Source: Acidimicrobiia bacterium (GTDB lineage: Bacteria; Actinomycetota; Acidimicrobiia; Spongiisociales; Spongiisociaceae). Taken from it: 61,163 bases of DNA. Under the pieces are notes generated by a model. It was not told where the DNA came from, made no database searches, and saw nothing but the letters and a program-made list of their open reading frames with translations. The DNA lies in NCBI GenBank assembly GCA_009841075.1, contig VXMP01000088.1, forward strand, positions 1 through 61,163, given 5' to 3'. Within the stretch, counting starts at the first letter, position 1. Every line of letters begins with the position of its first letter. A program made the position numbers and the translations under genes. Below, piece by piece: positions 3,001-42,068 of this stretch.

Positions 3001-3405
3001 TCAGTTGGTTTCCAGAAACGAGAGGTAACCGGCGGCGTCCAGGAGTCCGTCCAGGTCCGACTCCTCGGCAACCTGCACCTGGACCATCCAACCTTCATCG
3101 TAGGGGGAGGTGTTCACCAAATCCGGCTGGTCTTCGAGGTTCCGGTTGACCGCCACCACCTCGCCTCTGACCGGGGTGTAGAGGTCGGCTACGGTTTTGG
3201 TCGACTCGATCTCGGCGCACACATCGCCGGCTTCTACCGTTTCGTCTTCCACCTGATAATCCAGGAACACCACATCGCCGACATGATCCTGGGCGTAGTC
3301 GGTGATGCCGATGGTTATCAGGTTCGGATTATCCGGGTCGCGGCGGATCCACTCGTGGGAGTCGGTGTACAAAAGGTGGTCGGGAGTCTCGTAGTCCATC
3401 TTCAT
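3001..3405 (-). CDS. gcvH: Glycine cleavage system H protein
   Basis: GcvH carries the lipoyl arm that shuttles the aminomethyl group between the P, T and L proteins. The 134-residue length is typical. The lipoylation segment ESTKTVADLYTPVRGEV contains the acceptor lysine near residue 71 within the expected ES-x-K context. The C-terminus has the usual DEGWMVQV segment. The ATG start overlaps the end of gcvT by 4 nt, and gcvPA follows after 3 nt. No lipoyl ligase or L-protein gene is in the window, so lipoylation and the E3 partner must be encoded elsewhere. Confidence 0.95.
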   Translation of the reverse strand: MKMDYETPDHLLYTDSHEWIRRDPDNPNLITIGITDYAQDHVGDVVFLDYQVEDETVEAGDVCAEIESTKTVADLYTPVRGEVVAVNRNLEDQPDLVNTSPYDEGWMVQVQVAEESDLDGLLDAAGYLSFLETN

Positions 3406-4508
3406 GAAGGTCTCGACTTTCGATAGAACGGGCGGTTTACGACCACAACCGGTAGGGCACGACCTCGTACATCCACCTCCAGCATCAATCCCGGCTTAGC
3501 ATACGCGACCGGAAGGTAGGCCATGGCGATTCCGTGCCGCAGACTGGGGCTGAAGGTACCGCTGGTGAGGTAGGCGATCGGTTCGGTCACCTCCGGCGCG
3601 TGTACCGGAAAGCCTGCTCTGGGAACCCCGCGGTCACGGGCCGCAAGATGGGTCAGTTTACGGATGGGCGAGGAGGTTTGGGCATCGATCAGGGCCGAGC
3701 GTCCGGTGAACGGGGCACCGTCTTGGAAGGTGACTGCAAAACCTAGACCGGCCTCAAACGGAAGAATGGTCGGGTCAAGTTCGTTGCCGTATAGAGGTAG
3801 GGCGGCTTCCAGGCGGAGGGTGTCTCGGGCGCCGAGACCGCACGGGGTGGCCCCGCCCGAAAGTAGGGCATCCCATAATGCTTCGGCATGCTCGGCCGGG
3901 ACCACGCATTCCCCGCCCTCTTCTCCGGTATAGCCGGTGCGGGCGAAAAAAGCTTTACCGCCTTTCCAGTCGATCTCACCACATTGGCGGGGTTTCCACC
4001 CACCGACGTCGATGTCGAAGACCTGGCTGAGCAGGGGGACGGCATCCGGACCTTGAATTGCCAGCATCACCGTCTCTGCGGTCACTTCGACCGCCTGGTC
4101 GGGTGCTACCGCTCGAAGGCGCTCAAAGTCGGAAACGGCATTGGAAGCGTTGTGAACTACCAGCCAGGACTCTTCGCCGACGTGGTAGACGATGACGTCG
4201 TCCTCGATTCCTCCGGATTCGTTGCAATACAGCGAATAGTATGCGGCACCGACCTTAATGGAGGTCACGTCGAAGGTGGTGACCGATCGAAGCCTCGATC
4301 CGGCCCCGGGTCCTTTGACCCAAGCCCTACCCAGGTGGGAAATATCGAAAACCCCGACACCCTCCCGCGCCGTCTGATGTTCGGCGATTATCCCCTGATA
4401 TTGGAGGGGCATTTCCCATCCGGCGAAGGGAGCAAAACGGGCACCGAGCGACTCATGTCGTTGGCGAAGCGGGAGGCGGATCAATCCCTTTCCGCCCTGT
4501 TGTGACAC
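3402..4508 (-). CDS. gcvT: Glycine cleavage system T protein (aminomethyltransferase)
   Basis: GcvT transfers the methylene unit from aminomethyl-GcvH to tetrahydrofolate and releases ammonia. The 368-residue length is normal. Recognisable features are the N-terminal HESLGARFAPFAGWEMPLQY, VFDISHLGRAWVKGPGA, the folate-site region with YTGEEGGECVVP, and the C-terminal GFPVHA. The start is GTG. It is the first gene of the gcv operon, and nitrobindin on the same strand ends 50 nt upstream. A T-protein paralogue such as YgfZ is less likely because it lies directly before gcvH and gcvPA. Confidence 0.95.
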   Translation of the reverse strand: MSQQGGKGLIRLPLRQRHESLGARFAPFAGWEMPLQYQGIIAEHQTAREGVGVFDISHLGRAWVKGPGAGSRLRSVTTFDVTSIKVGAAYYSLYCNESGGIEDDVIVYHVGEESWLVVHNASNAVSDFERLRAVAPDQAVEVTAETVMLAIQGPDAVPLLSQVFDIDVGGWKPRQCGEIDWKGGKAFFARTGYTGEEGGECVVPAEHAEALWDALLSGGATPCGLGARDTLRLEAALPLYGNELDPTILPFEAGLGFAVTFQDGAPFTGRSALIDAQTSSPIRKLTHLAARDRGVPRAGFPVHAPEVTEPIAYLTSGTFSPSLRHGIAMAYLPVAYAKPGLMLEVDVRGRALPVVVVNRPFYRKSRPS

Positions 4509-32910: not shown

Positions 32911-33225
32911 TTAAGAGCGCTGCTCGATCCGCTTCACTCGATTTTCCAAGTACTCAATTCTCCGTTCCATACGCGCCTCCAAGTACTCGGCATCTCGTTC
33001 CGTGCTCTCTTCCAAGTACCCGATTTTCCGTTCCATCCGTTCCTCCAAGTACTCGGCGTCTCGTCCAGTGCTCTCTTTCAGATATTTGATGTTCCTTTTC
33101 AAACGCTTCTCCAAATATTCTCTGGAGTCGCTGTTCATATTGTCTGTACTAAAAATTATAAACAGAGTTAATCCAAAAAAGAAATATATAGTAAAATAAA
33201 TAAGTAAAATACTTGCAGGACTCAT
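32911..33225 (-). CDS. Membrane-anchored coiled-coil protein with 22-residue repeats
   Basis: A 104-residue protein with one N-terminal transmembrane helix (ILLIYFTIYFFFGLTLFII) and a long charged coiled coil. The coiled coil is built of 22-residue units (pattern D-A-E-Y-L-E-x-R-M-E-R-x-I-x-Y-L-E-x-S-T-x-R), visible in the DNA as 66-nt direct repeats (AAGTACTCGG at 32981 and 33047). ATG with an AAGGGAAAA site. The 5' half and upstream DNA are very AT-rich, unlike neighbours, which suggests recent acquisition. The layout (short TM anchor plus coiled coil) recalls the array at 40724-42068 but the sequence is different. Function unknown. Confidence 0.7.
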   Translation of the reverse strand: MSPASILLIYFTIYFFFGLTLFIIFSTDNMNSDSREYLEKRLKRNIKYLKESTGRDAEYLEERMERKIGYLEESTERDAEYLEARMERRIEYLENRVKRIEQRS

Positions 33226-38668: not shown

Positions 38669-39689
38669 TCAGACGACTCCGGAACGTACCGCGGCCAGCC
38701 ACGCATCGGCCTCTTCACGGCTCGTCTGGTCGGGCACGCCGGCCAGGACCAAGTATCCCTCATCGTCCACATAGGAGACATCCACGTCCTCGCGCAGCGC
38801 CCGGGTTGGGGGGCCATCTACCTGGCCGCTGACCGATTCTGACGGGTAGGAGCCGAGGAACTTGACGCTGGCCGCCCTCATTTGGAGGTTGCGCAGCGCA
38901 TCGCCCAAATCCTCGTCCATTACGTGGCCTTCGCAATCGATGAGGAAGCAATAGCTACCGAGGTCGGCCTTGGTGGGGCGGCTCTGCAGGCTGGTGATGT
39001 TGATGGACCGGGCCACGAATTCGCCCAGGATGCCCACCAGCGACCCCGGAGCGTCGGCCCGTTGGTAAACGACCAGGCTGGTCTTGTCCTGTCCGGTAGG
39101 TGGTGGAATGGTATCCCGGCCTACCAGTAGGAAGCGTGTCTTGTTGCCGGGTCGATCCTCTATACCCAACTCAATCACCTCCAGGCCATAGACATCGGCC
39201 GCTCTCTGCGGTGCGATGACCACCGTGTCCACGTCCTTTTTGTCTGCTAGATCGCGGGCCGCGCGGGCAGTCGAGTTGGCCGCAACTGTCACGACTTCGG
39301 GTAGTCGTCGGGCAAGGAACCGACTGCACTGAGCGGAAGCTACGGGGTAGGAAAGGACGTACTTGACATTCTGCAGTTCCGTTCCCGGAAGCGCCATCAG
39401 CGCGAGATTGACATCCATTATCACCTCGTCCTGGATGAGCAGTCCGGTTCCCGAAGGCCAGAGTGTCGATACTGGAGGTCACAGCCCCCTCAATCATGTT
39501 CTCGATCGGGACGAACCCGACATCCACCACGCCGAACTCCACGGCCTTCAGTACCTGCAACATCGAGTTGAACGGTTGCCTGCGCAACCCGGCCAGATCC
39601 TCGCGGGTAACCAGAGCCTCCTCCGTGAAGGTGCCAGCGGGTCCTAGGAAACCCAGGGAACGGGAACTTGTATCACGAGAATAGACCAC
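38669..39689 (-). pseudogene. pheA: Prephenate dehydratase with ACT domain, frameshifted
   Basis: The N-terminal frame (39689 down to about 39450) reads LGFLGPAGTFTEEAL, FVPIENMIEGAVTSSIDTL, the PDT start. After AFG the homology continues in another frame as TGLLIQDEVIMDVNLALMA, then ARDLADKKDVDTVVIAP, and an ACT domain with LVVYQRADAPGSLVGILGEF, NITSLQSRPTK and GSYCFLIDCEGH. One extra base in the run at 39448-39452 explains the break. About 55 extra residues follow the ACT domain. PDT converts prephenate to phenylpyruvate in phenylalanine synthesis with Phe feedback through ACT. It may be a true pseudogene or a sequence error. Confidence 0.85.
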
Positions 39690-39786: not shown

Positions 39787-40635
39787 ATGTCGGTGGCTGA
39801 TCGCATCAATAGGTTCCTGGCCGAGCATCCCGGCGTCCCGTTGACTGTTGCGGTCGGGTTTGCCAGTCCTGCCGGGATAGCGTGGCTAGCTCGTAGGACC
39901 AGGAACCGGCCCGTGCGGCTGCTGATAGGCGACTGCAAACCTCAGCGCTTTGAACGTTCTAGCCGTGAAGACCGCGACGAAATGTTGCGGTTCTTGGCCA
40001 GATCTGATGTGAAAGTCCGTAATTGGTACAGCCGGCAGGGGACGGGAGGGCAGGGGAAAGGGCCCGATGCCCACCTGAAGGTATGGGTGGCTCATGACTC
40101 TCCTCGTCCCGCCGCACTGAACGGATCGGCGAATCTGAGTAAACAGGGTCTCTATCACAACGTGGAAGTGGTCACTGCGGTTCCTGACTCAGAGACGAGA
40201 GCAGTTGTCCAGGTAGTGGAGGACCTCTTTAACAAGGGCTGGGATGTGAAGGACCGGCTGCGCGGATACATGGATAGCAGTACCTACTCGAAGTCGTCTT
40301 CGACAAGCACCGTTAGTAGACGAAACACCCGTAGGCGGAACGTTCCGAGGCGAAGCACCCGTAGGCGGAACGTTCCGAGGCGAAGCACCCGTAGGCGGCC
40401 CGTGCGTAGACGTCGAAGCCGGAAAAAGGGGTGCGCCCCGGTTGGGGTGGGGTGTCTGACCTTGGTGGTGGCTTACGTTGCGGTGTCTGTCTTGGTCGGG
40501 TTACTGGGCCAAGGATGCGAAAGCGGGTTTGAGACGTTTTCGCCGGCACCGACCCAAGCCACCTTTCCAACCACCCCCACAGCTCCTACCACCGAGGCGG
40601 TGGCAACGTTTCGCCAACCTCTCTCCTCCGGATAA
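39787..40635 (+). CDS. PLD-like protein with basic repeats and C-terminal membrane anchor
   Basis: A 282-residue protein. Residues 1-160 form a single phospholipase D-like domain (VAVGFASPAGIAWLARR, IGDCKPQRF, then HLKVWVAHD...ALNGSANLSKQGLYHNVEV with H-x-K and N-G-S-A-N). A Ser-rich linker and a strongly basic 10-residue repeat (R-R-S-T-R-R-R-N-V-P, about 178-208) lead to a transmembrane helix (GCLTLVVAYVAVSVLVGLLG) and a short Pro/Thr tail. It is thus a membrane-tethered PLD protein with a nucleic-acid-like basic spacer. It is convergent with the coiled-coil array. One PLD motif means a dimer would be needed for catalysis, as in BfiI or Nuc. Confidence 0.75.
   Translation: MSVADRINRFLAEHPGVPLTVAVGFASPAGIAWLARRTRNRPVRLLIGDCKPQRFERSSREDRDEMLRFLARSDVKVRNWYSRQGTGGQGKGPDAHLKVWVAHDSPRPAALNGSANLSKQGLYHNVEVVTAVPDSETRAVVQVVEDLFNKGWDVKDRLRGYMDSSTYSKSSSTSTVSRRNTRRRNVPRRSTRRRNVPRRSTRRRPVRRRRSRKKGCAPVGVGCLTLVVAYVAVSVLVGLLGQGCESGFETFSPAPTQATFPTTPTAPTTEAVATFRQPLSSG
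40321..40410 (+). repeat. Three tandem 30-nt repeats in PLD gene
   Basis: Units begin at 40321, 40351 and 40381, starting CGAARCACCCGTAGGCGG; the first two differ by one base and the third is degenerate at its end. They encode the basic 10-residue repeat, so unit gain or loss keeps the frame. This is an intragenic minisatellite, not a CRISPR array, because there are no spacers. Confidence 0.9.
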
Positions 40636-40723: not shown

Positions 40724-41017
40724 TCAGTCGGTACCGGTACGTAGTTCGGGTTCCGGTGCCGCTGACGGGGGTTCAGGGACAGCTCGGACGACCCCTGGGG
40801 TGGGTTGAGGTACCAAGTGAAGATACAAACTGTCGATACGCTGGTCTATCCGGTCGATACGTTGGCCCACTTTGTCGAGGCGCTTATTCATTTGCGCGAA
40901 GCCGTCGGTTATGTCTTTACGGCGGCCCTTGTCAAAGTAGATCAGGAGCGTGATTATGGCTCCAAAGAACACAGCAATAACCACGCCGAGTGTTTCAATG
41001 AGTGGTAAATCTGCCAT
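40724..41017 (-). CDS. Membrane coiled-coil array, paralogue 4 (distal)
   Basis: A 97-residue protein beginning MADLPLIETLGVVIAVFFGA: a short N-terminal segment, one transmembrane helix, a basic DKGRRKD stop-transfer, and a coiled coil with two 7-residue R-I-D-x-x-x-Q units plus RIDSL. It ends with the Pro-rich tail LVPQPTPGVVRAVPEP and PELRTGTD. An in-frame start at 41137 exists but would read back through the preceding gene; ATG 41017 matches the paralogues and lies 7 nt from the upstream gene's stop. It is convergent with the PLD gene. Function unknown. Confidence 0.75.
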   Translation of the reverse strand: MADLPLIETLGVVIAVFFGAIITLLIYFDKGRRKDITDGFAQMNKRLDKVGQRIDRIDQRIDSLYLHLVPQPTPGVVRAVPEPPSAAPEPELRTGTD

Positions 41018-41024
41018 TTCGATC

Positions 41025-41330
41025 TCAGTCGGTACCGGTACGTAGCTCGGGTTCCGGTGGTGTTGCAGGGGGTTCTGGGAGGGCTCGAACGACCCCCGGG
41101 GTGGGTTGAGGTACCAAGTGGAGATACAAGCTGTCAATGCGCTGGTTCACCTGGGAAAACCCGGCGTTCGTTGCTCCCTCCAGTTTGTTGATCTCCTTCT
41201 TCACTTCCTTGCGCAACCTGGTCATATCTTTACGCCGGGACTTATCGAAGTGGATCAGGAGCGTGATGATCGCTCCGAAGAACACGACGATGACCCCACC
41301 GAGTATTTCAATAATTGGTAAATCTGCCAT
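41025..41330 (-). CDS. Membrane coiled-coil array, paralogue 3
   Basis: A 101-residue paralogue beginning MADLPIIEILGGVIVVFFGA. After the transmembrane helix it has a basic segment DKSRRKDMTRLRKEVKKEIN shared with paralogue 2, then NAGFSQVNQRIDSLYLHL with no complete 7-residue R-I-D unit, and the common tail LVPQPTPGVVRALPEP and PELRTGTD. It thus has the shortest heptad block of the four. Spacing to both neighbours is 7 nt, consistent with one operon. Confidence 0.77.
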   Translation of the reverse strand: MADLPIIEILGGVIVVFFGAIITLLIHFDKSRRKDMTRLRKEVKKEINKLEGATNAGFSQVNQRIDSLYLHLVPQPTPGVVRALPEPPATPPEPELRTGTD

Positions 41331-41337
41331 TTCGATC

Positions 41338-41664
41338 TCAGTCGGTACCGGTACGCAATTCGGGTTCCGGTGGTGTTGCAGGGGGTTCTGGGAGGGCTTG
41401 GACGACCCCCGGGGTGGGTTTGGGTACCAAGTGGAGATACAGACTGCTGATGCGCTGGTCTACCCGGTCGATGCGCTGATCTACTAGGTCAATGCGTCGG
41501 TTTACCTGGGCGAATCCGGCGCTCATCTCTTTCTTTACCTCCTTGCGCAACCTGGTCATGTCCTTACGACGCGCCTTATCGAAGTAGATCAGGAGAGAGA
41601 TGATCGCTCCGAAGAAAACGGTGACGACCCCACCGAATATTTCAATGAGTGGTAAATCTGCCAT
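41338..41664 (-). CDS. Membrane coiled-coil array, paralogue 2
   Basis: A 108-residue paralogue beginning MADLPLIEIFGGVVTVFFGA, with the DKARRKDMTRLRKEVKKEM segment, then AGFAQVNRRIDLVDQ and RIDRVDQRISSLYLHL (two complete 7-residue units), and the shared tail LVPKPTPGVVQALPEP and PELRTGTD. The DNA of the tail is nearly identical to that of the neighbours, pointing to recent duplication or gene conversion. It lies 5 nt after paralogue 1. Confidence 0.77.
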   Translation of the reverse strand: MADLPLIEIFGGVVTVFFGAIISLLIYFDKARRKDMTRLRKEVKKEMSAGFAQVNRRIDLVDQRIDRVDQRISSLYLHLVPKPTPGVVQALPEPPATPPEPELRTGTD

Positions 41665-41669
41665 GGGTC

Positions 41670-42068
41670 TCAGTCGTTTCCGGTACGTAGTTCCGGTTCC
41701 GGTGCCGCCGCAGGGGGTTCAGGGACAGCTTGGACAACTCCTGGAGTGGGTTGAGGTACCAAATGGAGGAGAAGGCTGCTGATGCGCTGATCCACCCGGT
41801 CAATGCGTTGGTCTACCTTGTCGATTCGCTGGTCTACCTTGTCGATGCGTTGATTTACCCCGTCTATACGTCGGTCCACCTTGTCGATGCGCTTGTTCAC
41901 CTGCGCAAACCCGGCATTCATTTCTACACTAAGACCCTTTATTTTCTCGTCCATCTCGCTGACCTGGTCTTTTATCCCATTGGCAAAGTAGATCATCAGC
42001 GTGAGGATCCCTCCGGAGAACACGACGATGATCACGCCGAGTATTTCTATGAGGTTTGAATCTGCCAT
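41670..42068 (-). CDS. Membrane coiled-coil array, paralogue 1 (first gene)
   Basis: The longest member, 132 residues: MADSNLIEILGVIIVVFSGG, one transmembrane helix, an acidic-basic spacer, NAGFAQVNK, then five 7-residue R-I-D-x-V-x-Q/R units and RISSLLLHL, and the shared tail LVPQPTPGVVQAVPEP and PELRTGND. The regular R-I-D-x-V-D-Q repeat predicts a continuous amphipathic helix. ATG has a GAAGGGAG site about 7 nt upstream. Its promoter is probably the AT-rich region 42069-42239. It may act as a membrane scaffold or oligomerising anchor; that is inference from layout only. Confidence 0.78.
   Translation of the reverse strand: MADSNLIEILGVIIVVFSGGILTLMIYFANGIKDQVSEMDEKIKGLSVEMNAGFAQVNKRIDKVDRRIDGVNQRIDKVDQRIDKVDQRIDRVDQRISSLLLHLVPQPTPGVVQAVPEPPAAAPEPELRTGND

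Follow-up and report, generated by a model that had tools for sequence, protein, structure and literature searches.

A tandem array of four genes for predicted membrane-anchored coiled-coil proteins with conserved ends and variable rods in an Acidimicrobiia genome

Introduction

The DUF16/RepMP1 proteins of M. pneumoniae form a multigene family in which a proximal part is shared and 21-nt units are gained or lost between strains (PMC3472980), and MPN010 (PDB 2BA2) has been placed among the coiled coils with beta-layers (PMC4786415). Two other groups that come close are the CCDC90/DUF1640 proteins (PF07798), which are heptad coiled coils anchored in the membrane and carried on stalks of variable length, and the XhlA proteins (PF10779). 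In XhlA, the transmembrane (TM) helix lies after the coil. As to coiled coils in general, those used as spacers tend to conserve their length (PMC5082667), and similarity among them can be convergent, weak profile matches to many such families being expected (PMC3695513).

We analyzed a stretch of 61,163 nucleotides from an Acidimicrobiia bacterium, referred to here as the window, in which four successive genes encode small proteins with a single predicted membrane helix, a heptad rod and a common Pro-rich tail. We describe the architecture of these genes, the selection acting on them and their relation to similar genes in the same genome and in sister species, and compare them with the systems above.

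Results

Organization of the array

Between positions 42068 and 40724 of the window, four successive minus-strand open reading frames (ORFs) encode proteins of 132, 108, 101 and 97 residues, and the gaps from each stop codon to the next start are 5, 7 and 7 nt. The genes, as given by the ORFs and their translations, are:

41670-42068, minus strand: gene 1, 132 residues; TM helix at about residues 9-27, acidic linker, five heptads R-I-D-x-V-[DN]-[QR], Pro-rich tail
41338-41664, minus strand: gene 2, 108 residues; TM helix, basic insert, two heptads, tail
41025-41330, minus strand: gene 3, 101 residues; TM helix, basic insert, zero complete heptads, tail
40724-41017, minus strand: gene 4, 97 residues; TM helix, no basic insert, two degenerate heptads (RLDKVGQ and RIDRIDQ), tail

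A TTG codon upstream of gene 4 (41137), within gene 3, is not likely to be its start. All four proteins have in common a short acidic N-terminus (MAD-x-x-x-I-E), a single hydrophobic segment at residues ~6-28 with a mean hydropathy of 2.3-2.7, a charged helical middle between this segment and the tail, and a Pro-rich tail of 35 residues running from S-L-[YL]-L-H-L-V-P to PELRTG[NT]D; the basic insert shared by genes 2 and 3 is DMTRLRKEVKKE. ORFs, translations and hydropathy agree in these respects with the original prediction, which had described four minus-strand genes of 97-132 residues, 5-7 nt apart, starting MAD-x-x-x-I-E, with one TM helix, a coiled coil, a Pro-rich tail ending PELRTG-x-D and, in two members, a basic insert.

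The array is flanked by prephenate dehydratase, methyltransferase and squalene-synthesis genes. The prephenate dehydratase gene (38669-39689, minus strand) is split over two frames, its N-terminal part at 39171-39689 and its C-terminal part at 38669-39424; the frame changes near codon 80, and either the gene is frameshifted or the assembly contains an indel. On the plus strand, a gene at 39787-40635 converges on the array and encodes a PLD-like domain followed by an Arg-rich repeat and then a TM helix. It contains a 30-nt tandem repeat at 40321-40398, and six other genomes of the family carry relatives of it.

Neither Lys nor Arg precedes the TM segment in any of the four proteins, and 3-9 of these residues are found in the 20 residues that follow it; nearly all relatives show the same distribution. 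Because the acidic N-terminus is free of Lys and Arg and the stretch after the TM segment is rich in them, the positive-inside rule would place the rod and the tail in the cytoplasm. This assignment is weaker for gene 1, since its juxtamembrane stretch is net negative.

The rod

The number of complete seven-residue units R-I-D-x-V-D-Q had been predicted to be 5, 2, 0 and 2 in genes 1-4. These counts hold for a relaxed form of the pattern; the strict form gives 3, 2, 0 and 0, the zero in gene 4 arising because its heptads read RLDKVGQ and RIDRIDQ. At the DNA level, 21-nt repeats were detected in genes 1 and 2 with TRF, and the five heptad units of gene 1 are identical to one another at 13-19 of 21 nt in pairwise comparisons. 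The repeated segment of gene 1 is:

41778-41891, minus strand: rod of gene 1, a 21-nt repeat array encoding five heptads plus RIS (TRF period 21, 5.4 copies, 41781-41893)

AlphaFold2, run as a monomer prediction on an alignment of the four copies, modelled the gene 1 protein as a single helix from residue 2 to residue 103, through the TM segment and the rod, and as a disordered tail from residue 104 to residue 132 (mean pLDDT 75.5). Searches of solved structures returned weak coil matches only; of the two best PDB sequence matches, both weak, one was reovirus sigma-1, a trimeric coiled coil. A parallel trimer would be the favoured state of the rod because the heptad resembles the trimerisation motif RhxxhE, which has R at position g, hydrophobic residues at a and d and Glu at e (PMC5940361): as read from the sequence, R(g)-I(a)-D-x-V(d)-D(e) fits the motif of parallel trimers, save that Asp replaces Glu. 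In gene 3, with zero complete heptads, a stable coil may be absent.

Selection on the tail and relation between the copies

The positions of the conserved tails are listed below, and substitution rates were calculated between copies:

41670-41777, minus strand: conserved tail of gene 1 (35 residues plus stop codon), with a tail dN/dS of 0.08-0.24 over six pairs
41338-41445, minus strand: conserved tail of gene 2
41025-41132, minus strand: conserved tail of gene 3
40724-40831, minus strand: conserved tail of gene 4

Over whole genes, dN/dS between copies was 0.16-0.46 and dS was 0.39-1.0. Because whole-gene dN/dS takes these values, the four ORFs are real coding sequence, and the copies fit old duplicates under purifying selection. 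Tail dN/dS stayed at 0.08-0.24 in the six gene pairs, compared to 0.44-0.78 for the head of gene 1. Between genes 1 and 2, 24 replacement and 9 silent changes were counted in the head and 7 and 17, respectively, in the tail (Fisher p = 0.0014); the contrast between head and tail was also seen for gene 1 versus gene 3 (p = 0.013), and it is significant only for gene 1 against genes 2 and 3, not for the other pairs. To have called the tail DNA nearly identical was an overstatement, as it is 77-90% identical between copies and carries many silent changes; the tail protein is conserved because replacement changes have been removed by purifying selection. On account of this selection, the tail is most likely the working end of the array proteins. 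Conservation among four paralogues by itself says nothing of what the tail binds.

Gene conversion, which the near identity of the tails had suggested, finds no support. Informative sites among the array copies were not significantly clustered along the sequence (permutation p = 0.20), and the longest stretch of exact identity between junctions (40 nt) fell short of significance (permutation p = 0.06). In the tandem pairs of sister species, counts of concerted sites were neither significant nor decisive.

Similar genes in the same genome

The number of such genes in the genome was estimated from profile matches only. A profile built from several of them detected many comparable proteins in the genome and in its family. 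Contig C53 (L037) carries one such group, a second array of like design with four intact copies and one broken copy in tandem:

L037 286-672, 669-938 (with an in-frame TAG), 1132-1389, 1575-1883 and 3338-3718: copies of the C53 array, located by profile search

The C53 proteins have heads of the form MTMQE[IV] and a variable number of RIAANGE-type heptads, and a motif RIATLEGI closes the rod in all copies except the last; we take their I-x-x-N heptads to resemble the Asn-at-d type of trimeric coiled coils. Several ATPases, judged AAA/DUF4143-like by eye only, are located near coiled-coil genes of this genome (L037 6085-7203, L038 1-995 and 1263-2540). Single genes of a similar kind are present on contigs C86, C51, C73, C59 and others, those on C51 and C73 being the sole matches to PF07798, below cut-off. 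One gene of the same general design lies in the window:

32911-33225, minus strand: single gene, 104 residues, with an N-terminal TM helix and without the tail (ORF, TM and charge)

Its rod is built of 11/22-residue repeats, hendecads such as ERMERRIEYLE, encoded by a 33/66-nt tandem repeat. Convergence may account for part of the likeness between the various coiled-coil genes of the genome, and common descent of all of them is unproven.

Relatives and an orthologous locus in sister species

The combination of head and tail was not found in nine congeners or in those further members of the family and order that were searched, and no relative with head plus tail was found in 14 other genomes of the family. 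A head/tail pattern scan of genome contigs and viral contigs, and tblastn searches in phages and plasmids, confirmed no relative. Among the 59 relatives searched, a single match, at the level of the coil, was obtained outside the genome itself. No conserved neighbour of the array was found and its surroundings differ in the congeners; a ubiE-like gene is present in 8 of them, with none of the other tested window genes beside it.

As no orthologue of the window array was found, copy number and rod length were compared on a similar gene which, in five congeners, encodes a head MPPLDWIGIVTLFGIAVSINWWVVKSYSD and a tail LVxDVxLxxGAMGIYP. There is one copy of this gene in G002, G005 and G006 and there are two in tandem in G004 and G009. 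The locus is orthologous in the five congeners because its flanks align at ~83-90% identity. The proteins measure 84, 102, 106 and 113 residues, with constant ends and a variable rod, and the upstream copy in G004 contains an exact in-frame 33-nt duplication (LDKRFDQQDAR) that is absent from G009. The comparison of copy and repeat numbers among relatives that the original prediction had proposed thus reveals variation in both, and homologues found only as single genes of fixed length, which would have spoken against it, are not what the relatives display, as these occur singly or in tandem and differ in length. Combined, these results show that the family repeatedly gives rise to constant ends with variable rods and to tandem copies, and that these change between close species; the proposed tandem duplication of a gene for a membrane-anchored coiled coil whose ends are conserved and whose rod varies is upheld.

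TM coiled-coil genes of sister species, characterized by 'RFDRQD' and 'WWVVKSYSD', resemble those of the array in their N-terminal TM segment, basic juxtamembrane stretch, variable 7/11-residue repeats, conserved ends and, in some cases, tandem arrangement, whereas their TM and tail sequences are unlike those of the array; homology with the array genes is suggested by the profile search, not proven. Matches to a congener protein were obtained at 68-100% identity, mostly in Acidimicrobiia metagenome-assembled genomes that are presumably of sponge origin, judging from the isolate names. Our search for literature on coiled coils in sponge-associated Acidimicrobiia found no paper. In other genera of the family, L119 1699-2451 and L121 2120-2740 encode TM proteins of 250 and 206 residues with long rods of 11-residue repeats, e.g. 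EMVQFRDEMRGEWAEFRGEM.

Discussion

The best explanation of the array, for which we see about an even chance, is that its products are membrane-tethered cytoplasmic coiled-coil oligomers that carry a docking tail, with drift in both the number of copies and the length of the rod. The N-terminus would be outside, a single helix would cross the membrane and the rod and tail would be in the cytoplasm, where the helical rod would associate with itself into a coiled coil, probably of three parallel chains, and lift the flexible Pro-rich C-terminal tail away from the membrane. The most likely role of the tail would then be to dock a single partner from the cytoplasm at the membrane, and the rod would serve mainly for oligomerisation and avidity, with a loosely constrained length. 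The array itself would have originated by local tandem duplication and the rods would change through the gain or loss of in-frame 21- or 33-nt units.

The chief rival, which is less probable and yet deserves serious consideration, is a family of rapid turnover and little functional specificity: a weakly constrained, lineage-specific set of genes with rapid birth, duplication and loss, a general or redundant role in the envelope and no specific partner. In favour of this reading, the family's 14 other genomes yielded no head-plus-tail relative, none was confirmed in genome contigs, viral contigs, phages or plasmids, no conserved neighbours were found and one copy of the C53 array is broken. However, the coding sequence is under purifying selection that is strongest on the tail, and the four copies have persisted for a long time (dS up to ~1).

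The original prediction had likened the proteins to a ruler or an array of mixed oligomers. In a molecular ruler or graded set, one tail partner would be held at different heights, or hetero-oligomers of graded height would be formed. Constant ends and rods of 0, 2, 2 and 5 heptads in one operon-like unit are what such a device would look like, and other arrays and pairs also show differences in length between copies. We nevertheless regard a ruler as unlikely because rod length is not conserved between orthologues: at the sister-species locus the proteins vary from 84 to 113 residues and the copies from 1 to 2 while both ends are constant, whereas a ruler should hold its length (PMC5082667), and unequal rods on the same membrane would put the tails out of register. 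More speculative, and doubtful, is a membrane scaffold kit in which co-expressed rods of different length would mix and present one docking tail, heptad and copy number tuning the height and valency of the partner and being re-tuned in bacteria of this family by repeat gain and loss.

A phage or prophage origin, with the array encoding XhlA-like holin accessory proteins, is very improbable: it is suggested by weak matches to PF10779 (gene 1, E 8.5e-5, 23.1 bits, cut-off 34.7) and to the hemolysin phrog_1193 (E 9e-4), but the XhlA match spans the heptads only, the neighbours are metabolic with no phage genes seen nearby, there is no relative in phages or viral contigs and the TM segment precedes the coil, the reverse of XhlA. 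It is equally hard to credit that repeats were collapsed or duplicated during metagenome assembly or binning, even if the genome is split into 90 contigs and misassembly is common at tandem repeats; assembly duplicates, named at the outset as a possible refutation, are excluded by the divergence of the copies (head and tail DNA differ by 10-34%, many of the changes being silent, and dS is 0.39-1.0) and by the presence of the array once, inside a 61-kb contig, and tandem pairs with the same layout occur in separate assemblies of sister species.

The four copies in one unit, the second array and the five-species locus with 1-2 copies provide a natural series in which the rod varies and the ends are fixed, and which allows a test of whether coiled-coil length in small membrane proteins is under selection or neutral. 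The PEPPxxxPEPELRTGxD tail is a defined candidate docking peptide that can be used in a pull-down. Beyond the rod-length series and the tail peptide, this is an ordinary lineage-specific family.

Comparison with known coiled-coil families

Searches of Pfam, NCBIfam and PHROGs gave below-cut-off or uncurated matches only, mostly to the heptads, and the earlier statement that no family is recognised is right at curated cut-offs. PF07798 was not among the matches listed for genes 1-4 (the list for gene 1 gave its best 25 of 72 matches, the lowest of them far under the cut-off). The array proteins and CCDC90/DUF1640 are both membrane-anchored heptad coiled coils with variable stalks, and a CCDC90/DUF1640-like layout is also seen in proteins from other families of the order (L072-L074, L076, L077 and L080). 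However, CCDC90/DUF1640 proteins have a C-terminal TM helix and a head before the stalk, whereas in the array the TM segment is N-terminal (~6-28), the coil comes after it and the free end is the Pro-rich tail; membership was rejected for want of the C-terminal anchor. XhlA resembles the array proteins in its small size, single TM helix and heptads of the form RIDxVDxR, but the order of coil and TM helix is reversed and the match is restricted to the coil.

Among published systems, the DUF16/RepMP1 proteins come nearest. Membership of DUF16 (PF01519) is ruled out at the family cut-off, gene 1 scoring 18.4 bits (E 0.003) against a cut-off of 40 and genes 2-4 giving no match. Both systems contain direct 21-nt/7-residue coiled-coil repeats in variable number; the array differs in that every copy has an N-terminal TM segment and a conserved Pro-rich C-terminal tail and in that its four genes are close-packed in one unit. 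In conclusion, the array is a lineage-specific case of a kind of growth and length change already known for coiled-coil families.
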